A stretch of DNA of 49,437 nucleotides from Nitrospirota bacterium (GTDB lineage Bacteria; Nitrospirota; Thermodesulfovibrionia; UBA6902; DSMQ01). The notes beneath the pieces are model-generated. The model had not been told where the DNA came from. It searched no databases and worked only from the letters and a program-made list of their open reading frames with translations. Positions within the stretch are counted from its first letter, which is position 1. Each line of letters begins with the position of its first letter. This document shows, one piece after another, positions 35,701 to 48,543 of this stretch. The stretch is taken from the NCBI GenBank assembly GCA_016212185.1, contig JACRGX010000039.1, forward strand, positions 1 through 49,437, read 5' to 3'. Made by a program: the position numbers and the translations under genes.

Positions 35701-36774
35701 CTATTCCTGTCCTTTGAATCTCTTTAAAATTTCCGCGGGTATTTGCTGAAGCGACGCAATCATATCAGCGGCTCCGGCCGATATAACCTCATGGGGCATC
35801 CCGAATATGACGGCGCTTTCCTCTGACTCGGCTATTGTAAAGCCTCCCCTTCTTTTGATTTCTTTCATCCCGGCCTTCCCGTCGCTGCCCATTCCTGTAA
35901 GGACTACGCCGATTGTCTTTGGCCCAAAAATTTCTGCCGCGCTCTTCATCATCAGATCAATTGACGGGATATATATATCATCCTCAGTGGAATCCTTAAT
36001 GGTCACAACAGTTTCACCTTTTGTCCTGTTAAGCATTATATGATGACCGCCCGGACAGATGAGCGCCTTGCCGGCTTCAACAGCCTCGCCGTGCTCCGCC
36101 TCTTTAACAGTAAGGGCGCTTACCTTATTCATCCTGCTGGCAAATTGCCTCGTAAACCCATACGGCATATGCTGGCTGATGAGTATGGGCGATGGAAAAT
36201 TCCCCGGAAGCATGGAGAGCACTACCTGAAGCGCGGCCGGACCTCCAGTTGAAGCGCCCATAGTAACTATCTTTATATCTTTGTCTTCAAACCTCTCGTA
36301 ACTTTTCGGCATAACCGCATCTTTATACCCGACCCATGAGATATTTTTCCTGAGTTTATCCATATTCAAAGAGGTAATGCTCAGGACCTTTCTTAACAGG
36401 TCTCCCTCTATTGCTTCAAGCTCTTTTGAAGCGCTTTTGGTCGGCTTAACGATAAAATCCACTGCGCCTAATTCCAATGCTTTAAAGACAGTAGATTTTT
36501 CTCCGTGGGAACTGACAATGATGACAGGCATGGGATTTTCTTCCATCAGCCATCTGAGGAGCGTAAAACCATCAACCCTCGGCATTTCAAGATCAAGCGT
36601 GATGACATCAGGTTTTAATTTCATGACTTTTTTCATCCCGTCATAACCGTCAACCGCAACGCCCGCTACTTCTATGGCCGGCGACTTCTCAAGCATCCTC
36701 TTTATTGTCTGCCGGTTAAACGCCGAGTCGTCAATAATCAAAACTCTGATTGGTTTTTGTCCTGTTCCGGTCAT
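35701..36774 (-). CDS. cheB: Chemoreceptor glutamate methylesterase CheB
   Basis: A 357-residue protein. Receiver 1-125 with Asp61 in TLDLEMPRVDG, linker, then the methylesterase domain 165-350. The catalytic triad is Ser175 (MGASTGGPAAL), His202 (SQHMPYGFT) and Asp298 (TGMGSDGKAGM). It removes methyl groups from receptors or deamidates them when phosphorylated by CheA. It starts three bases after cheR, the antagonistic methyltransferase. Full length, with no missing key residue, which shows that this chemosensory system has methylation-based adaptation. Confidence 0.95.
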   Translation of the reverse strand: MTGTGQKPIRVLIIDDSAFNRQTIKRMLEKSPAIEVAGVAVDGYDGMKKVMKLKPDVITLDLEMPRVDGFTLLRWLMEENPMPVIIVSSHGEKSTVFKALELGAVDFIVKPTKSASKELEAIEGDLLRKVLSITSLNMDKLRKNISWVGYKDAVMPKSYERFEDKDIKIVTMGASTGGPAALQVVLSMLPGNFPSPILISQHMPYGFTRQFASRMNKVSALTVKEAEHGEAVEAGKALICPGGHHIMLNRTKGETVVTIKDSTEDDIYIPSIDLMMKSAAEIFGPKTIGVVLTGMGSDGKAGMKEIKRRGGFTIAESEESAVIFGMPHEVISAGAADMIASLQQIPAEILKRFKGQE

Positions 36775-36777
36775 AAT

Positions 36778-37638
36778 TTATAATCCCTGCCTCTCAGGTT
36801 TTTGATACACCATATCGTTACTAAAATGCTTTAAAGAAAAAGCTGTAGAAAGCTTTATAAGCGACTCTGTATGTCCCAGCACCATATAACCTCCGTATAC
36901 AAGGCTGTTATAGAAATTTTCTATAACCTTCTTTCTTGCCGCGTCATCAAAATATATTAAAACATTACGGCAAAAAATTAAATCCATTTTCCCGACCAGA
37001 CGCACCTTGAAAGGGTCAAACAGGTTCACATAGTTAAAGACAACGAGTTTTCTGACGCTGTCGGATATGCTGTAAGTATCATCAGCTTCGTTATGAAAAT
37101 ATTTTTTTATAAAATAATATTCCGTGCTCCTGAATGAATTCTTTTTGTAAATTCCGCGCCGCGCAACCTGAAGCGCCCTCTGGCTTATATCACTGCCCAC
37201 TATCCTGATATCCCACCCGTCAAAGCCTCCTTTCTCAAGCAGCAGCATGGCAAAAGTATAAGGCTCCTCTCCGGTAGCGCAGCCGGCAGACCATATACTT
37301 ATCTTTTTTTTGTCCTTATTTTTCTCCTTAAGTTCAGGGATTATTTCATCTATGAACGCCTTTAACTGGGACTCTCCCCTGAAAAAATAAGTCTCGTTTA
37401 CCGTTAAAATGTCCATAATGTTTTGAATCTCATCGTCCCGTTTCTGGTCATACATAAGGAAACGGTAATATTCCCTGAAGTCTTCCAGACGAAGGACCTT
37501 TAAACGCCTGTTCAGCCTCCGCTCTACCAGAAAGAGCGATTTTTCATTAAAAAAAATACCGCAGTATTCCCTGATAAAATCACTTATCAGGCGGAAGACA
37601 TCCAGATGCAGAGGTATAATTTCTTCTTCAAATTGCAA
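36778..37638 (-). CDS. cheR: Chemoreceptor methyltransferase CheR
   Basis: A 286-residue SAM-dependent methyltransferase. An N-terminal helical domain (LISDFIREYCGIFFNEKSLFL) precedes NETYFFRGESQLKAF and the SAM-binding SIWSAGCATGEEPYTFAM. DLIFCRNVLIYFDD and GGYMVLGHTESL follow. No C-terminal TPR or pentapeptide-tether partner domain. Its start overlaps the HEAT-repeat gene by 11 bases, so the HEAT protein is coupled to the methylation enzymes. Confidence 0.94.
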   Translation of the reverse strand: MQFEEEIIPLHLDVFRLISDFIREYCGIFFNEKSLFLVERRLNRRLKVLRLEDFREYYRFLMYDQKRDDEIQNIMDILTVNETYFFRGESQLKAFIDEIIPELKEKNKDKKKISIWSAGCATGEEPYTFAMLLLEKGGFDGWDIRIVGSDISQRALQVARRGIYKKNSFRSTEYYFIKKYFHNEADDTYSISDSVRKLVVFNYVNLFDPFKVRLVGKMDLIFCRNVLIYFDDAARKKVIENFYNSLVYGGYMVLGHTESLIKLSTAFSLKHFSNDMVYQKPERQGL

Positions 37639-39634
37639 GATATCTCTCCGCAGTTTCCCTTACCTGATAATCTTCGTCAAGTTCAGCGGTATCTTTTAAA
37701 TATTTTTCGCTCTCGGATTTAAAAAATTTGCCGAGGACGTCAACGGCCTTCTTTCTCACCGACCATGCGTTATCCTTTAAAAGCGGGATGAGGTCGCGGA
37801 AAATTCCGTCAAATATGGACAATGACTCAATAGCCGTGGCCCTTATCTCGGCGTCCTTGTCTTTTAAAAGTCTGCGCAGTACCTCCTTAACCTTTTTCTC
37901 CTTAAAATTACCCAGTTCCTTAATTGCAGCGGCCTTCACAAACCCTGATGTGTCCGACAGGAGATTTATCAGCGGCTCTACGGCTTTCTTGTTTCTGGTA
38001 CTGCCCAGTCCCTTGGCTGCAGCGACCCTGACAAATACATTCGTATCATTAAGAAGAAATATAAGAGGCTCTACAACTTCTTCGGAATCAATCATGCTGA
38101 TAGCCATGGCGGCAGACTTGCGGACCTCCGGAGATTCATCCGACAAGGCCGGCATCAGATACTTTATTGACTCCGGTGTATCTATCCGGCTGAGCGCATC
38201 AACAACCGCCGTCCGGACCCTGACATCACTGTCTCTAAGCGCGGCGCCGAGCGTCTCTATTGCCTTTTTAGCGCCGATGAGGCCGAGAAGCACTGCAGAA
38301 CTTTTTCTTACCACAGGGTTTTTATCGGAAAGAGATGCTGTTATTTCATCTGTGTCCAGCCACTTCTCTAATCTTAAAAGGGCTTTAAGCGCTGCCTCCT
38401 GCACATCTTCATAGCGGTCAAACATCAGCGGTTTTATGTGCTTAACCGTCTCCGGATTATCCAGCGTTGAAAGCGCAATAGCCGCACTACTCCTTACATG
38501 CCCGTCTTCATCTTTAAGCAGGCTGATGAGGTGGTCCTGAAACGCCGCGGAAGCAGCCTTCGCCGCTATGCCGCATATGACCCTTCGCTGGTACAGGTCT
38601 TTTGAATTGAAAAAAGGGATAAGAAAGTCCGGTGAAGCCTTGCTTATGGACACAAGCGTCTTTATGATTATTTCACTTGGTTCCTCTTCAATAGCCATTT
38701 CAAGAAGCGCCGGAAGGACCGATTTATCCCTGAGAAGTCCAAGCAGTACGGTTGAGGCAATCATTACATCGGTCTTTTCGCTTTTGGCATGATGCGCCAG
38801 TAAACTAACGGCTTCGCTTCCATGTATTTTGTTAATAGTCTTAATTATGATGTCTTCGGAAATTCCTCTTTCATAAAATTGTTTGATTGCTATGATAGTC
38901 TCTTCCTGAACAGTTTTTAACCCATCTTTTAAAAACGGGGCTATCTTTGTCAGCGATTCAGGGTCGGCAATCTGCCCCAAGGCCTTGATGACAGGTTTTC
39001 TCAGGTCTTTTCTGTGCAAGGCCGAAACAAGCGCATCAACCGCCCTTGCATCGCCGATCTTGCCCAGTCCGTCAACGGCATGATATGCGAGCCATGTATT
39101 GACGCCCTTCATGATGGGAATAAGGCTGGTTACGGCGGATTTATCGCGAAAATCACAGAGATACTCTATGGCTGATGAACGGACGTTATCATCTTTATCT
39201 TCAATCGCCTTTAATAAAACCGGAAGCGCCTTTGGGTCTTTTGTGCGTCCGACAATATCAATAACAAATTTTCTGACATCGGGGTTGGGGGTGTTATAGG
39301 CCTTTTTTAGATGACCGGTGACAGTGTGCCCTAATGAAATCAGCGCTTCAAGCGCAGAATTTCTTGCATTGGCATTGTTTTCACGCTTAAGCGTGGATAT
39401 GAGTCCTTTTATTACCGCATTGCTTTTGATCGCAAGCAGCAGCTCAACAGCAGTTTTTCTTATTCGCCAGTTGTCGTCTTCAAGGCTTTTTATAAGAAGG
39501 GCGATTGCCAAGGTCCTGTTTTTAAGCTTAATCAATTGCCTGACGGCGTCAAGCCTGACTTCAACGTCATCGCTCTTCATCAGGGAATTAAATTTACTCT
39601 GGAATACGGCCGCCGCCTTTTTTTCATCAGCCAA
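37628..39634 (-). CDS. HEAT-repeat (PBS-lyase-like) protein in chemosensory operon
   Basis: A 668-residue protein made almost entirely of about 30-35-residue helical repeats, roughly 18-20 of them. Examples are ALPVLLKAIEDKDDNVRSSA and DSEEVVEPLIFLLNDTNVFVRVA. No catalytic domain, signal peptide or membrane segment. HEAT arrays are protein-protein scaffolds; one is known, as I recall, as Cpc7 in the Myxococcus Che7 system. The TTG start at 39634 lies one base after the cheW stop with a GGGGG site, and the end overlaps cheR by 11 bases. It is therefore an integral member of the operon and may connect receptors or CheW to an output, by inference. Confidence 0.88.
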   Translation of the reverse strand: MADEKKAAAVFQSKFNSLMKSDDVEVRLDAVRQLIKLKNRTLAIALLIKSLEDDNWRIRKTAVELLLAIKSNAVIKGLISTLKRENNANARNSALEALISLGHTVTGHLKKAYNTPNPDVRKFVIDIVGRTKDPKALPVLLKAIEDKDDNVRSSAIEYLCDFRDKSAVTSLIPIMKGVNTWLAYHAVDGLGKIGDARAVDALVSALHRKDLRKPVIKALGQIADPESLTKIAPFLKDGLKTVQEETIIAIKQFYERGISEDIIIKTINKIHGSEAVSLLAHHAKSEKTDVMIASTVLLGLLRDKSVLPALLEMAIEEEPSEIIIKTLVSISKASPDFLIPFFNSKDLYQRRVICGIAAKAASAAFQDHLISLLKDEDGHVRSSAAIALSTLDNPETVKHIKPLMFDRYEDVQEAALKALLRLEKWLDTDEITASLSDKNPVVRKSSAVLLGLIGAKKAIETLGAALRDSDVRVRTAVVDALSRIDTPESIKYLMPALSDESPEVRKSAAMAISMIDSEEVVEPLIFLLNDTNVFVRVAAAKGLGSTRNKKAVEPLINLLSDTSGFVKAAAIKELGNFKEKKVKEVLRRLLKDKDAEIRATAIESLSIFDGIFRDLIPLLKDNAWSVRKKAVDVLGKFFKSESEKYLKDTAELDEDYQVRETAERYLAI

Positions 39635-39635
39635 T

Positions 39636-40109
39636 TTAATTGCCCCCTTTTTTGTCTTTAACAGGATTCCCTGACAAACTGCCTAAAAGCATTATTTCTT
39701 CGGGAGTAAGCAGATTGTCAATATTCAAAATAATTATCAGTCTGTCGCCTGACTTCCCGATGCCGCTGAGATATTCAGGTTTCAGCCCTTTAAAAATAGC
39801 CGGCGGGGATGATATCTCTTTTTTGTCAATATGGAGAATCTGCCTGACTGCATCAACCAGCAGTCCGATTTTTTCCCCGCGTATCATTACGATTAAGATC
39901 CTTTCCTCCTGAGGCGAGGGTTCAACATTAAGGCGTTTTCTCATATCCAGCAAGGGGATTACAGCGCCTCTCAGGTTGATAACGCCGGTGATAAAACTCG
40001 GGGTATTGGGAAGCGGGGTTGTCTTCAGCGGCCTTGCAATCTCAAATACCTTGTCAAGATCAACGCCGAATTCTTCTCCCGCTATGGCAAAAATAGCGTA
40101 CTTACTCAA
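39636..40109 (-). CDS. cheW: CheW-like coupling protein (short)
   Basis: A 157-residue single CheW domain: KYAIFAIAGEEFGVDLDKV, TPLPNTPSFITGVINLRGAVIPLLDMRKRL, GLLVDAVRQIL. It links receptors to CheA. The TTG start lies inside the last codons of the upstream receptor gene (8-base overlap), pairing the two. A second, longer CheW is encoded at 44755-45396. Having one CheW per receptor gene suggests each receptor has its own adaptor. Confidence 0.93.
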   Translation of the reverse strand: MSKYAIFAIAGEEFGVDLDKVFEIARPLKTTPLPNTPSFITGVINLRGAVIPLLDMRKRLNVEPSPQEERILIVMIRGEKIGLLVDAVRQILHIDKKEISSPPAIFKGLKPEYLSGIGKSGDRLIIILNIDNLLTPEEIMLLGSLSGNPVKDKKGGN

Positions 40110-41805
40110 ATTTAAGCCCTTCTATGGTTTTCCTGAAGGCCTGAGCCTCATGCTCCATCTTCTTAAAAGAAGCGCTCATATGCTGAATAGCGGTAGCAGT
40201 ATTGTAGCAAATTGTTTTAATCATATCTACTTTCTGAATAAGGTCCAGGCTGACTTTGCCATGCTCGGATAAAGTGCTGACTATGCCTTTGACGCTGTCG
40301 TTTGCGGCATCAAAGCTCTTGGTCAGCATACGCGCCCCAAAAGATTGATCCTGAAGGTTTCTCTTTATAAATTCAGACAGGTCTTTAAGCTTCTCCGCAA
40401 CAGTGGTAATCTGGTCTGATTCCTGCACCTGCATGTGAGCGGCTCTTAAGATATATCCTATTGTCACCTGCATTAATTCAATATAAGTGGTTATCTGAGT
40501 TATTGCGCCGACCTGTTCGCCTGTAGCCTTCTGAATTACATGCGCCATCTCATCAGAATGCTTTGCAGTATCAATCACTCCCCTGAAGGCCTCGCCTGTT
40601 TTTACGATAAGTGCAATACCCTTTTCAACTACCTGTGCGCTTTTTTCCGAAACAGTAATGGTTGAGGCTATTTCATCCCTGAACATATTAATGATATCCG
40701 TAATTTCTTTTGTAGAGGCGACCGTCCTGTCAGAGAGCGTTTTTATTTCTTCGGCAATAACTGAAAATCCCTTGCCATACTCTCCGGCCTGCTCGGCCAG
40801 AATCGCCGCATTTAAACTTAACAGGTTTGTTTGTTTTGTTACATTCGCAATAACTGAGAGAACTTTCTCTATATTTTTGGACTTTACGCCGAGTCTTGTT
40901 GCAAACTCAAAGTTTTTTGCAACTGCATTTGCTATCTCCTCCATACCCTCCATGGCATTAACAACGCTTAACATGCCCTCATCAGAGGCTATTCCCCTCA
41001 CCTTACTCGTCAGATTGACAGATTGCCTGGAACTCTTTTCTATCGCCTTAAGATTCTCCGATATCTCCATAACCGATACTATTGCCTCATCAGTAGAGGT
41101 AGAAAGGCTTTCACCCCTTTTAAATGTTTCTTTTGCAGCAACCGTAATGCTGCTCATTAGAGAATAAATTTCATTCAGCGATTTGGAAAATTGATCAAGA
41201 TTCTCCTCAACTTCCTCAATAGTAGAACTAATCTGAGCAAAGACAGTCATATTCCCTTCAAGAAACTTTGTGAAATCATTTGTGTTGTTAAGAATTTTTA
41301 CTTGCAGTTTCTCGCAGTTTCTTAATGATACCGCCACCTCCTCTGTTGAAGCAAACTGGTTGTTCGTGTCTTCTGTGATTTTATCCGTGTGCGGCTTTAT
41401 TTTTTCAATTGTAACCGCAATGTCATTTGACGAGGCATATAACTTACGGATAATGCTTCTGAAATAAATTATCAGGGTATTAAAATTTTTTACCAAGGTC
41501 CCGATCACGGGCGACACGGGAGGCTTTATGTCAATCATCAGGTTTCCTGCGGCAGCCTTGCTTATCGCTGTATTAAAGTCCGATACCGGCATGCTCAAAA
41601 ACCTGACAAAAAACAGCAGTGAGCCGGCAAAGGTCAGGATTAAGCATATTACTTCACTCCCAATAAAATAAAACAATAATTTGTTAAATTCCGGGCCGGC
41701 AATGGTATCTTTCATCAGTAAAACGGAAAAAGCGGCGCCGGCGCTCTGGCATATAAGGATAACAATCAGCAGCGTTATCATGAATCTTACCGTCAATATT
41801 TTCAT
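40102..41805 (-). CDS. Chemoreceptor with no periplasmic sensor domain
   Basis: A 567-residue receptor. Two membrane helices (8-30 and 44-68) are separated by about 13 residues, so there is almost no outside domain. HAMP-like region 70-122, then a long helical signalling domain whose hairpin tip reads QTNLLSLNAAILAEQAGE, followed by KGFSVIAEEIKTLSDRT. The usual NAAIEAARAGE has Leu and Glu/Gln substitutions, as in the neighbouring receptor. A C-terminal helical extension of about 100 residues follows. It lacks an obvious C-terminal CheR-tether pentapeptide. Lacking a sensor, it may respond to the membrane state or to its partner receptor 50 bases upstream. Confidence 0.9.
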   Translation of the reverse strand: MKILTVRFMITLLIVILICQSAGAAFSVLLMKDTIAGPEFNKLLFYFIGSEVICLILTFAGSLLFFVRFLSMPVSDFNTAISKAAAGNLMIDIKPPVSPVIGTLVKNFNTLIIYFRSIIRKLYASSNDIAVTIEKIKPHTDKITEDTNNQFASTEEVAVSLRNCEKLQVKILNNTNDFTKFLEGNMTVFAQISSTIEEVEENLDQFSKSLNEIYSLMSSITVAAKETFKRGESLSTSTDEAIVSVMEISENLKAIEKSSRQSVNLTSKVRGIASDEGMLSVVNAMEGMEEIANAVAKNFEFATRLGVKSKNIEKVLSVIANVTKQTNLLSLNAAILAEQAGEYGKGFSVIAEEIKTLSDRTVASTKEITDIINMFRDEIASTITVSEKSAQVVEKGIALIVKTGEAFRGVIDTAKHSDEMAHVIQKATGEQVGAITQITTYIELMQVTIGYILRAAHMQVQESDQITTVAEKLKDLSEFIKRNLQDQSFGARMLTKSFDAANDSVKGIVSTLSEHGKVSLDLIQKVDMIKTICYNTATAIQHMSASFKKMEHEAQAFRKTIEGLKFE

Positions 41806-41855
41806 CTCAGCCTCTCTCTGTAGTTATTCATACAAAATCCTGCAATTAAAATTCA

Positions 41856-44738
41856 CTAAAGCAATTTAAACTTCCGCATCAAATTCCTGATTTCTTCATA
41901 ATCATTGTCAGCGGCCTCCGTAAAACCTGTATAGTTCGGGTCAATGGACCTCAGTATCTGCATGTCTGAGGCCTTCCTGTCATCCAGTTCAAGCAGAGCC
42001 TGTTTTATCTGGAGTTTTTCTTTCTCAGACATATTACTGTTGACGCAAAAATTAAATTCAGGTATTTCAGAGGAATATTTCAGAAGGTTCAAACCCTTGT
42101 CCCTGAGCCTCAATGCCGTAGACTCCATAACTCCGCCGGCATCAAACTCCCCGCTTAAAACAGCCGCTGCAACGCCGTCATGATGCCCCAGATGGTCATA
42201 ATAGCTCAGGTCCTTGAGGTCAATGCCGGCTTCAAGGAGCATAGCCCTCGGGACGATATAGCTTGATGTTGAACGGCTGTCGCCAAAGGCGAAGGAAGCG
42301 CCCTTAATGTCATCAATGCTTTTGATTTTCCCGCCCGCCTTTGCAATTATTACAGCGTGATGATAATATCTCCCGCCCCTCAGCGCTTTTACCAGCGCCT
42401 CAATGCCGTATTTTTCCTTAGCCTCAATGTAGGTAGAGGGGGTCATATAACAGATATTTGTAACCCCCTCTCCAAAATCTCCAATCGTTCCGGCAAAATC
42501 AACGGCAAGCCTGAGATCCACCGTTTTATTTAATTTTTTTGCGAGATACTCGGCAAGCGGGGTAAAACGCCTGTACATCTCCGCAGGCGAGTCAAGCGGC
42601 ACAACCCCCATTTTGATTGTGTCTGCCTCAGCCTCGCTGCTAAGCTTAAACTTATGCAGTTCAGCCATAAGTATCTCAGCATCTTTAAGGAGGCTCCTTA
42701 GGTTTTTATTAATCTGAAACGACCTGCTTCTGTTCCCCTCCGGAAGAGTCATTATCCTTTCCATTGAGATAAATATGTTATTTGTGTTTAATTTCTGTTT
42801 GTTGATTGAGCCTGATATCTCATGCAATAACACTGAGATATTCTCCGCCGCATCATGCAGTTGTCTTTCTCCCTTAGACTGCTCCAGAGTGGCGTTTTTA
42901 ACATGTTTTGAAATTTCCCTGATTTTTTCTGTCTCCGACATTATCAGGTTTACTTCCTTTGACTGCTCAATTGTAGCTTCGGCAATCTGCGCGCTCATGC
43001 TTTTTATTTTCCCCATTGAATCCGTGACAACGCCGATTCCCTTTGTCTGCTCATAAGTTGCATTCTCAATCTGCGCCACCATTTCGGCAGAGTGTTTTGA
43101 ACTTTCAATAATCTGGGCAAATGATTCTTTTGCCTCTTTGGTAAGCAAGGCGCCTTCGTCCACAGTCATAGTTCCCTCTTCCATGTCTGAAACCGCCTCA
43201 CTGATTTCAGCCTGAACGGATTGTATAAGGGAAGATATTTCCTGAGTAGAATACGAGGTTCTCTCCGCAAGGTCCTTTATCTCATCGGCAACTACTGCAA
43301 AACCTTTCCCGTATTCTCCGGCCTGTGCCGCAAGTATTGCAGCATTAAGGGCCAGCAGGGTCGTCTGATCTGTTATCTCGTCAATTACATTCAGGATCTT
43401 CCCGATTTCATCCGAGCGGTTGCTGAGTTTTTCAATTGAGCCGGCCGTCTTCCGGACTGTGGATTTTATCCTTTCCATACCCTCTGCTGTTTTTTCAATA
43501 GCCGCCAGGCCCACAGAAGTGGCGTCAGACGTAACTTTTACTGAAAGCCTTGCTGATTCCTTTGTATTTGATTCTATTCCCTTAATCGTAGAGTTTATTT
43601 CCTCAACGGCAGAAAGCGTCTCCTCCACAGAGCGGGATAATTCACCGGCATTGCCGGCTATTTCATTTATATTCCTTGACATTTCCTCCATGGATGATGA
43701 CGCTGAATCAACCGCAATAGACAGGTCAATAGCGTTCTTGGCAATTTCCTCTGTTGTCGTTGCCATCTCGTTTGATGAGACAGCCGTCTGCTCGGTTGAA
43801 GCGATGAGTCCTGAGACGCTTTCAGCGATCTCACCTATAGACTTATTCAGCTCTTCTATGGATTCCGAGGTCCTGCTTATCGCCTCTGTTTCAATCAGCG
43901 AGCCTTCCACAACCTTCTTGGATTCCCTCTCAACATCTACAGTAACATTGACAACCCTCTTGGATACTGAAACTACCCTTTGAATGTTTTTTCCGATATC
44001 CAGGGCAGCCTTCGTCATGCTGAGACCAAGCCGGCCCATTTCATCATTGAAACGAATCGGCACCTTGATTGACAGATCACCCTGTGACAAAAGTTTTGCG
44101 CTGTTTTCAAATATCTTGACGGGGTTTATTATCGCCATTCTGAAAGCCATCCACAGCAATGCGCTTAAAAGCAGCGTGCCTATAAATAAATATATGACAA
44201 CAATTTTTATCCTGTAATCCACTCTGTCATAAGCATCTTTCGCAGACATTGAGACCTTTACGGTTCCGATAACACTGCCGGCTGTTTTATCACTGTGGCA
44301 CTCAGCGCATTTTGCGGAATTTACAAGAGGGTAATAGAAAACTATTTCTTTTCGCAACTTTCGGATAAACCTGGATTTGTTTGCCGCAACCGAATTAACT
44401 GCTGCGCGGTCCTCGCTCAGGATATTATTAAAAAGAATGTCCCTGCCTTCAGAGTTAAGCACTGTAACAGCATTAATTTCATTCAAAATGTTTTTTTGCT
44501 CGCCGGCGAAGGTCCGGACATCATTAAGATTGCCGCCTGCCAGCACATCGTTCATCTGTTTGGAAACTATAAACGCCGTGTTATTTGAATACGTCATTGC
44601 GGTATTGAGCACATCCGACCTGATAAATAAGATGCTGAAAAACCCTATGAACAACCCTCCGATAATCAGCGACAAGACTACAAAGCCGACTATTTTAAGT
44701 TCAAGTGATATATCTTTTATTTTCTGAATTAATTTCAT
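41856..44738 (-). CDS. Chemoreceptor with periplasmic c-heme site and C-terminal PhnD-like binding domain
   Basis: A 960-residue protein. TM1 about 15-38; periplasmic domain 40-172 ending in a PAS-like strand with heme-type CxxCH (Cys144, Cys147, His148), preceded by [10 protein letters not shown] and followed by [13 protein letters not shown], like the Geobacter c-heme sensor receptors; TM2 176-200; HAMP 200-255; signalling domain about 300-655 with tip [20 protein letters not shown]. After residue 700 a complete PhnD-type solute-binding fold starts ([58 protein letters not shown]). No hydrophobic segment precedes it, so it must lie in the cytoplasm. PhnD relatives bind phosphonates or other anions in the periplasm, so this location is unusual. 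It is central in the che operon. Confidence 0.9.
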
Positions 44739-44754: not shown

Positions 44755-45396
44755 TTAACTCATTTTAGCTATTTCTTCTACATTTAAAACTGATATGAAC
44801 CTGTCTTTCATCCTTACAACTCCTTTTACAAAATTCTTTTCCTCGTCATTCAGCGTAGAAGGAGGCTGTAAAAGCGAAGATGAGGGAAACCTCAGCACAT
44901 CCAAAACCAGCCCGACAAGTATGCCGATAGGCTCTTTTGAAGTCCTGAGTATAATAATTTTGCGCCTGGCGCCGGCCTCCTCTTTAAGTCCTATCCTCTC
45001 CCTTATATCAACTACCGGGAGAATCTTCCCGCGGATTGATGTTACCCCCTTAAAATACCTCGCAGATCTCGGCACGGGCGTAATATCCTGAAACCTTAAT
45101 ATTTCGTATATTTCTTTGGTCATTACGGCATATTCCTCATTAGCGACATTAAATGCAAGAATTTCCATCTGCTCATCCACCGGCTCCTCCGCTGCCCCGG
45201 GACTGACTGGAAGTTCAGTAACTGCAGGAACTTCCTGCTGAACGGCTTCATGCAGTGTTTTCGCGCTTTCCTTAATGACCGGAGTCTCACTGCTTTCAGT
45301 TTTTTGAACATCTGCAGGCGCTTCTTCCTGAACATTCTCAGGCGGCTTCTGCCCGGCTGTTTCTTTTATTTTTTTTCTAATCTTCGCTACATCCAT
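44755..45396 (-). CDS. cheW: CheW-like coupling protein with acidic/proline-rich N-terminal extension
   Basis: A 213-residue protein. Residues 1-75 are low complexity and acidic (GQKPPENVQEEAPADVQK), possibly a flexible tether. The CheW domain covers 76-212: QMEILAFNVANEEYAVMT, VTSIRGKILPVVDIRERIG, GILVGLVLDVL, KGVVRMKDRFISVLN. Its start overlaps the end of the ATPase gene by 20 bases and its stop lies 16 bases from the large receptor. The N-terminal tail, absent from the second CheW, may bind the ATPase or HEAT protein, which is speculative. Confidence 0.92.
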   Translation of the reverse strand: MDVAKIRKKIKETAGQKPPENVQEEAPADVQKTESSETPVIKESAKTLHEAVQQEVPAVTELPVSPGAAEEPVDEQMEILAFNVANEEYAVMTKEIYEILRFQDITPVPRSARYFKGVTSIRGKILPVVDIRERIGLKEEAGARRKIIILRTSKEPIGILVGLVLDVLRFPSSSLLQPPSTLNDEEKNFVKGVVRMKDRFISVLNVEEIAKMS

Positions 45397-46204
45397 TATT
45401 TACCCCGTTTAAACCTAATTCATGAACCACATCATACACCACATCTTTGGGTATCATCTGCAATTCCATGCCAAACCCCTCAAGCAGGGAATTTGAAGCA
45501 ATATTGTTAATATTCCTCGGAATCCCGCATGAAAATTTACATATAGCGGTTATGGCCTCTTCGCTGAAAAGAGGCTCTGTCTTGCCTGCAACCTTAAGCC
45601 TGTAAATTATATATTCCTTTACCTCCTCATCACTAAGCGGGTTAATATGATACCTTAAACCGATCCTCTGCCTCAAAGGGAGGTATGCCTTCCTGTCAAG
45701 CCTCACCCTTAAATCAGGCTGTCCGATAAGGACCAGGCTTAACAGATTCCCCTCATCAAGCTGGAAATTGGTCAGCAGCCGTATCTCTTCAAAGGTGGTC
45801 CTGTCGGGAATAAGCTGCGCCTCGTCTATAATTATAACAGGCGTGACGCCTTTTGCATGGTCCTCATAAACTTTTTCATAAATTGCCTCAAGCAGGTCGT
45901 CTTTATAATGGTTGCTGTCTATTCCAAAACTTTTGGCGATAATCCGCAAAAACTGGGAAGGCGTAAGGCGGGGATTTAAAATTGATATGACCCTGTATTT
46001 CTCATCAAGGGAATCCATCAATGCGCGGGACAGCGTAGTCTTGCCGCAGCCGACTTCTCCTGTCAGAAGTATTATCTCCTTTTCTTCAACACCGTGCTGA
46101 AGCCTTGCAAGAGCCTCTTCATGCATCTTGCTGTAAAAAAGGAATCTGGGATCCGGAGTCTTGCTGAAAGGCCTGTGTTTTAATCCGAAATAGAATTCAT
46201 ACAT
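45377..46204 (-). CDS. ExeA/GspA-like AAA ATPase in chemosensory operon
   Basis: A 275-residue AAA+ ATPase. Start MYEFYFGLKHRPFSKTPDPR is the ExeA/GspA signature. Walker A GEVGCGKTT (49-57), Walker B VIIIDEAQ, sensor and arginine regions LVLIGQPDLRVRL and LRQRIGLRYHINPLS. The protein stops after the ATPase domain, so the membrane and peptidoglycan-binding parts of full ExeA (about 550 residues) are absent. ExeA-type ATPases normally help insert the type II secretin; short forms occur in pilus and gliding loci. Here it lies between cheA (three-base gap) and cheW (20-base overlap) with no secretion genes near. It could be a MinD/ParC-like positioning factor or an output, by inference. Confidence 0.88.
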   Translation of the reverse strand: MYEFYFGLKHRPFSKTPDPRFLFYSKMHEEALARLQHGVEEKEIILLTGEVGCGKTTLSRALMDSLDEKYRVISILNPRLTPSQFLRIIAKSFGIDSNHYKDDLLEAIYEKVYEDHAKGVTPVIIIDEAQLIPDRTTFEEIRLLTNFQLDEGNLLSLVLIGQPDLRVRLDRKAYLPLRQRIGLRYHINPLSDEEVKEYIIYRLKVAGKTEPLFSEEAITAICKFSCGIPRNINNIASNSLLEGFGMELQMIPKDVVYDVVHELGLNGVNNGCSED

Positions 46205-46207
46205 AAC

Positions 46208-48178
46208 TTATTCCCTCTTCTCTGACAGCCTCTTAACGGAAAAGGCTTCTTCCATCAAGGCCTCAACATCAAGCACAAGGATAACCTGATGTTTGCCTAT
46301 TTCAGCCGCGCCTGCCAGCCCGGAAATGTTTTTAAAGTATCCGCCGAGAGATTTCACCACAATTTCCGCCTGCCCCAGCACATTATCAATCAGCAGCCCG
46401 AGTCTCCTGTCGCCTATACCGACAATCACCCCGAAATATTCTTCCTTCGGCTCTTCCTTAAGCATGAATATCCTGTCAATCCTGAGCAGCGGAAGCATTT
46501 TGCCCCTTGTTTCTATGACCTCCCTGCCCTCAATCGTCTGGATTTTATTGGTGTCAACGATAAAAGTTTCAGAAACAGAGGTCAGCGGAATCGCAAATTT
46601 CTCATTTGCCACTTCAATTAAAATCGCCTTGATTATGGCAAGCGTTATAGGCAAAGTAATGGTGAAAGTCGTGCCTGAACCGGCCACGGTTTCAATATCA
46701 ATAAAACCGCCCAGAGACGCAATTTTTTCCTTTACTATATTCATGCCTATTCCGCGTCCTGAAACCTCGCTGACGCTTTCTTTTGTGCTCAATCCCGGAA
46801 GGAAAATAAGGTTTGTAATCTCATTGGAGTCAAACTGCTGGGTTTCAGTCACCAATTTCTTCTCACGGGCTTTCTTGAGAATTTTATCCAGATTAAGTCC
46901 GGTGCCGTCGTCGCGGATTGTGATTATTACGTTATTGCCTTTCGGAAAGGACTTGAGGGTCACCGTGCCGCGCTCTTTCTTACCGGAGGCAATTCTTTCA
47001 TCTTTTGACTCTATTCCGTGGTCTATGGAATTCCTGATAATATGAATCAGCGGGTCTATGATTTCCTCGGCAATGACCTTGTCAATTTCCGTATCTTCGC
47101 CGAAAATTTCAAGGTCTATCTCTTTAGCCGCTTCCCTCATATACCTTTTTACAACCTGTGAAAGCCGTGCAAATATCTGGCTGAACGGGACCATCCTCAG
47201 CTCCAGGATATTATCCTGCAGTTCTGCAAGCCTTCTTTCAAAGGTCTGCGATATCCTGAGAATATCAAGGGTAAGAGGCGTGTACCCGTAAGTTGCTGCA
47301 ATCTCATGCCCGATTCTCAGAACAGCGCCTTTTGCAAGCACAAGCTCGCTGACGGTATCAAGAATTTTGTCTAATTTCTCTATGTCTACCCTTACAGTAT
47401 TAGTTGCGCTCTTTAAAACCACATCCTTTGGTTTTGCCGAAGCAGGCGCAGCAGGCAGGACTGCATGGGGCGGCACAATCATTTCCAGCTCCGAAGCCTG
47501 TGCCTTTTCTTTTAAAGAATCTATGTCTGCAGAACTGCCCATGAGGATTGTGAAACCAATTGAGCCATCAGGCACGCCGTGAGAACTTGGAAGGGTGGCA
47601 ATTATTTCACCTGCACTTCTAAGCTGTAAATTCAGCGCCTCTATTCCCTTATCAAACGTGGTCAGGTCAAAAACCGCTTTGACGAGATATAATGCCTTGC
47701 CGTCTTTAACATTGGTTTTCAGCCTGTGCTCTTCATACTCTGACAGCACCCTCAAGATAGACTGGCTTATGCCAAGTTCCTCAAGGTTGACGTCTTTGGA
47801 CTTGGATTTAAAAGTTTCCCTGAAGGCTTCTATGTCATTGACCTGATGGCTTACATCATCAACATCCTGGTCCTGCGATACCTGCGCTACAAGCGCTTTC
47901 AGCGCATCAATATTGCCGAAAATAAAAATTACCGCATTATCGGTAAACTCAATCTTGCCGAGCCTCAAATCATCAAGCAGTGATTCAAGGGTATGGCAGA
48001 GGTCGCTGATGCCTTTCACGCCGAAAAGTCCGGACAGCCCTTTCATGGTATGAATAGCGCGGAAAAGGGCGTTTAATGCATCGGGATCAAAAGTGCTTTG
48101 AAGTTCCAGCAGGGCATTAGCGGCGTTTGCTAAAATATCTTCTGCCTCTGCGATGAAATCATGTTTTGAGGTCTTCAT
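46208..48178 (-). CDS. cheA: Chemotaxis histidine kinase CheA
   Basis: A 656-residue kinase. P1 (1-105) carries phospho-acceptor His43 in LFRAIHTMKGLSG. A short P2-like region covers about 150-240 and a Pro/Ala linker follows. P3 dimerisation (about 262-325) begins VRVDIEKLDKILDTVSEL. P4 ATPase has IIRNSIDHGIES, RDDGTGLN, LPGLSTKESVSEVSGRGIGM. The P5 CheW-like domain (510-645) ends KHQVILVLDVEALM. All kinase boxes are intact. There is no fused receiver, so output goes through the separate CheY proteins. ATGA overlap with the first cheY shows tight coupling. Confidence 0.95.
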   Translation of the reverse strand: MKTSKHDFIAEAEDILANAANALLELQSTFDPDALNALFRAIHTMKGLSGLFGVKGISDLCHTLESLLDDLRLGKIEFTDNAVIFIFGNIDALKALVAQVSQDQDVDDVSHQVNDIEAFRETFKSKSKDVNLEELGISQSILRVLSEYEEHRLKTNVKDGKALYLVKAVFDLTTFDKGIEALNLQLRSAGEIIATLPSSHGVPDGSIGFTILMGSSADIDSLKEKAQASELEMIVPPHAVLPAAPASAKPKDVVLKSATNTVRVDIEKLDKILDTVSELVLAKGAVLRIGHEIAATYGYTPLTLDILRISQTFERRLAELQDNILELRMVPFSQIFARLSQVVKRYMREAAKEIDLEIFGEDTEIDKVIAEEIIDPLIHIIRNSIDHGIESKDERIASGKKERGTVTLKSFPKGNNVIITIRDDGTGLNLDKILKKAREKKLVTETQQFDSNEITNLIFLPGLSTKESVSEVSGRGIGMNIVKEKIASLGGFIDIETVAGSGTTFTITLPITLAIIKAILIEVANEKFAIPLTSVSETFIVDTNKIQTIEGREVIETRGKMLPLLRIDRIFMLKEEPKEEYFGVIVGIGDRRLGLLIDNVLGQAEIVVKSLGGYFKNISGLAGAAEIGKHQVILVLDVEALMEEAFSVKRLSEKRE

Positions 48179-48543
48179 AAATTCAGTGCTTTTTTAACAG
48201 TGCGCTGAAGATCCTCAGATTTAAACGGTTTGGTTAAATACGCGACAGCGCCCAAAGACAGGCCTTTCTTCTTATCTTCCTCACTGCCCTCTGTGGAGAT
48301 AATAATTACCGGGATTTTTTTATACTGGTCGTTGCCTTTCACAAAACTGATCAGCTCAAGACCGTTTATGTCCGGCATGTTGATGTCAACGGTGATTACG
48401 TCAAAAGACTGCAGCGGCAAAAACTTTAAAGCCTCAAAGCCCGTAGAGGCTTCAGATACCCTGACGTCGCCGATATCTTCAATTAAGGATTTTATAAACG
48501 CCCTCGTAGCATCCGAATCATCCACAACAAGAGCTGATTTCAC
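48175..48543 (-). CDS. cheY: CheY-type response regulator (first gene of chemosensory operon)
   Basis: A 122-residue receiver: Asp8-Asp9, phospho-acceptor Asp53 in DVITVDINMPDING, Thr/Ser switch region IISTEGSEED, and Lys in YLTKPFKSED. It starts with GTG at 48543 behind GGGGG, directly downstream of the operon promoter. Its end overlaps cheA (ATGA). Two CheY proteins, at the first and last positions of the operon, may divide output and phosphate-sink roles. Confidence 0.92.
   Translation of the reverse strand: MKSALVVDDSDATRAFIKSLIEDIGDVRVSEASTGFEALKFLPLQSFDVITVDINMPDINGLELISFVKGNDQYKKIPVIIISTEGSEEDKKKGLSLGAVAYLTKPFKSEDLQRTVKKALNL

Follow-up and report, generated by a model that had tools for sequence, protein, structure and literature searches.

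A Nitrospirota chemoreceptor with a predicted periplasmic heme sensor and a PhnD-type domain at its cytoplasmic end

The window (the whole stretch of DNA analysed here, 49,437 nucleotides from a Nitrospirota genome) carries a chemotaxis operon with the gene order CheY-CheA-AAA ATPase-CheW-receptor-MCP2-CheW-HEAT-CheR-CheB. All coordinates given below for the window refer to the minus strand. The first gene specifies a CheY-like single-domain receiver (48175..48543; PF00072, 4.6e-27) and is followed by a CheA with matches to Hpt, dimerisation, ATPase and CheW domains (46208..48178), an AAA ATPase (45377..46204; PF13401, 1.5e-25) and a CheW (44755..45396; PF01584, 3.6e-31) placed directly upstream of the receptor gene, 16 bases before it. 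Beyond the receptor lie MCP2, a second receptor of 567 residues without a recognised periplasmic sensor (40102..41805; PF00015, 2.4e-34), a CheW (39636..40109; PF01584), a HEAT-repeat protein (37628..39634; PF13646, 3.4e-96), a CheR methyltransferase (36778..37638; PF01739, 1e-57) and a CheB methylesterase (35701..36774; PF01339, 2.1e-60). MCP2 is a conserved neighbour of the receptor, and the HEAT-repeat protein and the AAA ATPase are regular members of its che operon across Nitrospirota. CheW domains were found in this operon only; the host genome has one che system and three methyl-accepting chemotaxis proteins (MCPs).

The receptor gene (41856..44738) is read from 44738 down to 41856. Its translation is a single ORF of 960 residues with zero internal stops, as the earlier note had proposed without giving the strand. 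The product consists of a first membrane helix (TM1, residues ~16-34), a periplasmic domain, a second membrane helix (TM2, ~173-197), a HAMP domain (200-241), an MCP signalling domain, a helical linker and a PF12974 domain. The signalling core (residues 423-581; 42996..43472) matches PF00015 with an E value of 7e-42 and is set inside a coiled-coil hairpin (~250-694) whose helices appear in the predicted model. This match and the surrounding che operon identify the protein as an MCP; the HAMP match (44016..44141; PF00672, E 2.5e-5) falls just below the cut-off (24.9 vs 25 bits), and in L070, a long paralogue, HAMP reaches 35.5 bits. The hairpin tips of all three host receptors (the two at 40102-44738 of the window, and L157) are of the type NAAILAxxAGE, as against the usual NAAIEAARAGE; the altered residues are ones that make trimer contacts in E. 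coli receptors.

Solute-binding proteins of the PhnD class are normally separate, exported proteins. Only two strongly hydrophobic 19-mers were found in the receptor by the Kyte-Doolittle scale, coinciding with TM1 and TM2 and averaging ~1.7-2.7, whereas the best 19-mer beyond residue 205 reaches 0.99. The linker, which runs from the hairpin base to the PhnD domain (residues 641-704; 42627..42818) and is conserved in relatives, does not exceed 0.33, and the maximum over residues 600-720 of 47 orthologues is 1.29. A membrane or signal segment hidden within residues 655-705 is thereby ruled out, and the hydrophobicity scan of the receptor revealed no signal sequence ahead of the PhnD domain, in agreement with the earlier claim that no transmembrane stretch precedes it. 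The MCP hairpin has to contact CheA and CheW, so everything after TM2 must share its compartment; by this predicted topology the PhnD domain lies in the cytoplasm. Judged by sequence, the two arms of the hairpin are of similar length (~250-466 and ~466-694), suggesting that the PhnD domain should sit beside HAMP, near the membrane, a position that the monomer model (pTM 0.39) is too uncertain around the hairpin base to place.

The periplasmic region, taken with the end of TM1 and with TM2 (residues 33-200; 44139..44642), has the features of a heme-bearing single-Cache (sCache_heme, Mcp40H-20-type) sensor. A profile built from 23 orthologous domains found two convincing solved structures, those of GSU0582 (3B47, 3.8e-14) and GSU0935 (3B42, 9.7e-12), with the CxxCH motifs aligned. 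PF21563 was matched by all 23 domains, the window protein alone scoring 21.3 bits, under the Pfam cut-off of 27. The AlphaFold model (pLDDT 92) resembles the Cache/PAS-type sensors WalK, GSU0935 and GSU0582 and, more weakly, Tll0287. By these matches the domain is homologous to the Geobacter c-heme sensors. The predicted c-type heme attachment site, CAECH (residues 144-148; 44295..44309), comprises Cys144, Cys147 and His148, exactly where the earlier note had read a CxxCH. Chance is a poor explanation for this motif, which is invariant in the 47 orthologues of alignment A2 although the enclosing domain is the least conserved and fastest-evolving part of the protein; it recurs in 56 of the 57 full-length Nitrospirota receptors of the GTDB scan described below. 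Cytochrome c assembly proteins are encoded in the host genome. We infer from the motif that the receptor binds heme. Two second-copy long receptors (L070:6771-9704 and L137:13099-15996) keep the PhnD domain and have a normal-length stretch between their membrane helices, and CxxCH is absent from both.

In the alignment from the profile search, Met60 of GSU0935, a heme ligand, falls on position 66 of the receptor (window ~44541-44543), which is Met in 43 of 46 orthologues and Leu in the window protein and its same-genus copy. An axial Met on the first helix is a variable, non-defining feature of the sCache_heme family, and if the receptor does carry heme, its ligation may be different. Met62, one turn of the helix away from Leu66, could stand in as ligand. 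The designation of the sensor as PAS has been overtaken: it is now classed as a heme-bearing Cache domain, the family having recently been renamed sCache_heme, and one signalling-type member behaves as an NO sensor (PMC12889525, preprint). Geobacter members have been described as redox-linked (PMC8396549).

The C-terminal domain (residues 710-947; 41898..42611) matches the full PF12974 (Phosphonate-bd) profile with an E value of 2.3e-57 (194.6 bits vs a cut-off of 27), so that the PhnD-type fold previously placed at about 705-955 is complete. It passes TIGR01098 (143.9 bits, cut-off 112) and falls well short of the PhnD equivalog TIGR03431 (138.6 vs 261.1 bits). Its best match is the phosphite-binding protein PtxB (5O2J, 6e-34), and its AlphaFold model (pLDDT ~90) superimposes on PtxB 5JVB with a Foldseek TM score of 0.90 and an rmsd of 2.0. 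Comparison with the PtxB pocket residues listed in PMC5700983 gave a divided answer as to whether ligand residues are kept. Ser130-Thr131-Ser132 and His160 of PtxB are retained as residues 823-825 and His853, whereas Tyr55 is replaced by Phe748, Tyr100 by His793, the cap residue Tyr208 by Phe895 and its partner Asp22 by Leu715. Conservation in A2 is high at Ser823 (47/47), Thr824 (41/47), Ser825 (44/47), His853 (45/47), Phe895 (45/47) and Glu872 (47/47), and a dN/dS of ~0.24 against the same-genus copy indicates purifying selection on the domain. The oxyanion-holding half of the pocket thus looks preserved under a lid that has become hydrophobic.

In PtxB, the cap mutation Tyr208Phe abolishes or much weakens binding of phosphite, phosphate and methylphosphonate (PMC5700983); the receptor naturally has Phe at this position, and Leu in place of the partner Asp. 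A phosphite-specific, PtxB-like function is accordingly unsupported. The long receptors have the signature Leu715/Phe895/Cys898 in common with a second family of shorter receptors, and no free homologue in the comparison has it; an oxyanion or phosphonate-like compound, not necessarily phosphite, is therefore the probable ligand. A role as a phosphonate transporter component was also rejected, no PhnC scoring above the curated cut-off in the host genome. That this genome has PhnD proteins and no PhnC over the cut-off suggests sensing more than transport. One such protein (L001, G000:C90:92256-95975) has a 583-residue frame with two tandem PhnD domains, a C-terminal CGRGCH and an adjoining histidine kinase gene, for which it is possibly the periplasmic sensor; another (L004, G000:C69:51004-54681) is a putative PhnD-type lipoprotein adjoining a sensor histidine kinase. 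Among the receptor orthologues, L067 keeps the domain but lost its STS loop, which forms the oxyanion motif, and ~64 residues of the domain are missing from L069; PhnD function may therefore not be universal in the family.

The long fusion was found in 35 of 101 genomes (the host and its relatives, the set being taken by eye from the match table) and also occurs outside the host's class, with ~50 genomes in total among 246 sampled Nitrospirota genomes when matches had to span the linker. A scan of GTDB species representatives with two peptide patterns drawn from the fusion family itself, from which distant independent fusions elsewhere could escape, kept 80 loci; 66 belong to the fusion family and are all titled Nitrospirota or its lineages, the other 14 being free binding proteins of Proteobacteria. 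Most of the che operon order is kept in ~50 of the 66, many of the remainder being short contigs. Full-length identity of orthologues to the window protein ranges from 38 to 91%, and none of 72,556 plasmid records covered 80% of the receptor. On this sequence evidence the receptor is conserved across Nitrospirota and old.

Natural variants separate the two sensor modules. At least five orthologue loci from several families (L054/L106, L063/L139, L065/L130, L072 and L127) are devoid of the periplasmic domain: TM1 is followed by a very short loop and TM2, and the MCP and PhnD parts are retained. The PhnD domain can thus persist independently of the heme domain. The shorter receptor family (L073:7595-9505, L074:6890-8797 and L075:6915-8882; 635-655 residues) has the layout TM-TM-HAMP-MCP-PhnD with a shorter MCP domain and occurs in FliG-bearing relatives; a common origin of its PhnD domains with those of the long receptors was neither shown nor rejected (AU p 0.39).

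The reading that we favour, and hold to be somewhat better than an even bet, is that of a membrane chemoreceptor with two inputs feeding a shared che operon whose output is probably non-flagellar. On the outside, the heme-bearing single-Cache domain would respond to redox state or to NO or another diatomic gas, and its signal would pass through TM2 and HAMP. On the inside, the PhnD/PtxB-type domain would sit where the returning coiled-coil helix has its base, close to the membrane, and would clamp an oxyanion or phosphonate-like metabolite; its Venus-flytrap opening and closing would act on the base of the same hairpin and bias it. Both inputs would meet at the CheA and CheW of the operon, with tuning by CheR and CheB, and the output would probably be movement by type IV pili or some other behaviour on surfaces. 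Dual sensing is preferred because both modules keep their diagnostic residues and the PhnD domain survives in orthologues that have no heme domain. An outside heme-type sensor with an inside PhnD domain, as the earlier note had it, is an arrangement that holds among orthologues; of its suggestion that periplasmic redox state is integrated with a cytoplasmic anion or metabolite, the two-sided integration stands as the preferred inference and redox state as one possible periplasmic signal, a related sCache_heme protein behaving as an NO sensor (PMC12889525).

The explanations that compete with two-input sensing differ widely in plausibility. That a frame error, a chimeric assembly or a misread gene has fused a receptor to a separate phosphonate-binding protein is recommended by the customary existence of PhnD-class proteins as separate, exported entities, and no result obtained here points to a join; the recurrence of the identical single-ORF order, conserved linker included, in dozens of independent genomes at 38-91% identity refutes it, leaving it a negligible chance. 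A more serious contender, though still an unlikely one, is that the PhnD domain has ceased to bind small molecules and now serves for structure or docking, by packing between the bases of hairpins or by attaching to a che protein such as the HEAT-repeat protein. The replaced cap residues, the fixed place of the domain after the hairpin and its persistence in L067 without the STS loop all agree with such a role. A dead pocket should drift, however, whereas the residues of this one belong to the best-conserved part of the domain and differ from those of free homologues in a consistent, shared manner. Somewhat less probable again is a receptor with in effect one input, in which PhnD does the sensing and the periplasmic heme domain is secondary or can be dispensed with, or the roles are reversed. 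The rapid evolution of the periplasmic domain and its loss in several families are what such a receptor would lead one to expect, but CxxCH is near-universal in full-length receptors, which would be difficult to account for if heme were not used.

The remaining alternative concerns the output and is compatible with two inputs: the protein could be an ordinary flagellar chemotaxis receptor, the absence of FliG reflecting genome incompleteness. Neither the flagellar switch protein FliG nor flagellin had any match in the host genome, which is 97.6% complete, while several PilT-family ATPases did. Among the 101 genomes, 9 of the 35 that carry the fusion have FliG (7 of them with strong matches), as do 55 of the 66 others (p ~1e-8; 8e-4 at genus level), the counts lying between 7-9 and 54-55, respectively; these relatives are non-independent, and absence from draft genomes may be incompleteness. 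Of the 37 genomes in f3, the largest family, 30 have FliG; the fusion occurs in just two genomes of this family, and both are without FliG. PilT-family ATPases are present in all 101 genomes and thus cannot discriminate between outputs. The strong FliG matches in seven fusion genomes keep a flagellar role in play as an improbable explanation, against which stand the near-complete host genome and family f3. Given that no flagellum is detectable and that the cell has only one che system, movement by type IV pili or some other behaviour on surfaces is the likelier output.

The closest known receptors are GSU0582 and GSU0935 of Geobacter sulfurreducens, which likewise have two membrane helices, a periplasmic heme c domain of the same family, HAMP and MCP domains; their published layout stops at the MCP domain (PMC8396549), to which the Nitrospirota receptor adds PhnD. 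DcrH of Desulfovibrio vulgaris is an earlier example of the layout, with a periplasmic domain, HAMP, MCP and an additional C-terminal sensor (PMC13401364). That sensor is an oxygen-binding hemerythrin and not a solute-binding fold; the likeness drawn here is one of layout. Its conformational change has been proposed to spread to the neighbouring domain (PMC13401364), and closure of the PhnD domain could act on the hairpin base in much the same way. The phosphite/phosphonate binding proteins PtxB, PhnD and HtxB share the fold and the STS and His oxyanion motif, whereas the receptor domain is predicted to be cytoplasmic, is covalently part of a receptor and stands outside any ABC transporter. 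AioX and ArrX use a PhnD-family fold as an oxyanion binding protein, separate and extracytoplasmic there, fused and inside here; the host's PhnD proteins beside histidine kinases extend this parallel. As for the earlier statement that the fusion was not described, the portion of the literature searched contained no description of a chemoreceptor with a PhnD domain or of its pairing with a heme sensor; the receptor is nonetheless common in Nitrospirota and its general layout not unprecedented.

Only a few of the known chemoreceptors may sense on either side of the membrane, and solute-binding folds are regarded as tools for use outside the cytoplasm. In the present family one conserved gene joins two dissimilar sensors in a single receptor, and its natural deletions, of the periplasmic domain or of the STS loop, make the division of labour testable. 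It is a tentative proposal, to which we give somewhat less than even chances, that the PhnD fold at the cytoplasmic end senses an internal oxyanion or phosphonate-like metabolite and, with the heme sensor, controls type IV pilus behaviour across Nitrospirota, the shorter family having the same pocket. If true, chemoreceptors would have acquired a solute-binding-protein fold as a permanent part of their cytoplasmic end, and the receptor would be a candidate for how flagellum-less, poorly cultured Nitrospirota steer surface movement by redox state or NO together with an internal metabolite.
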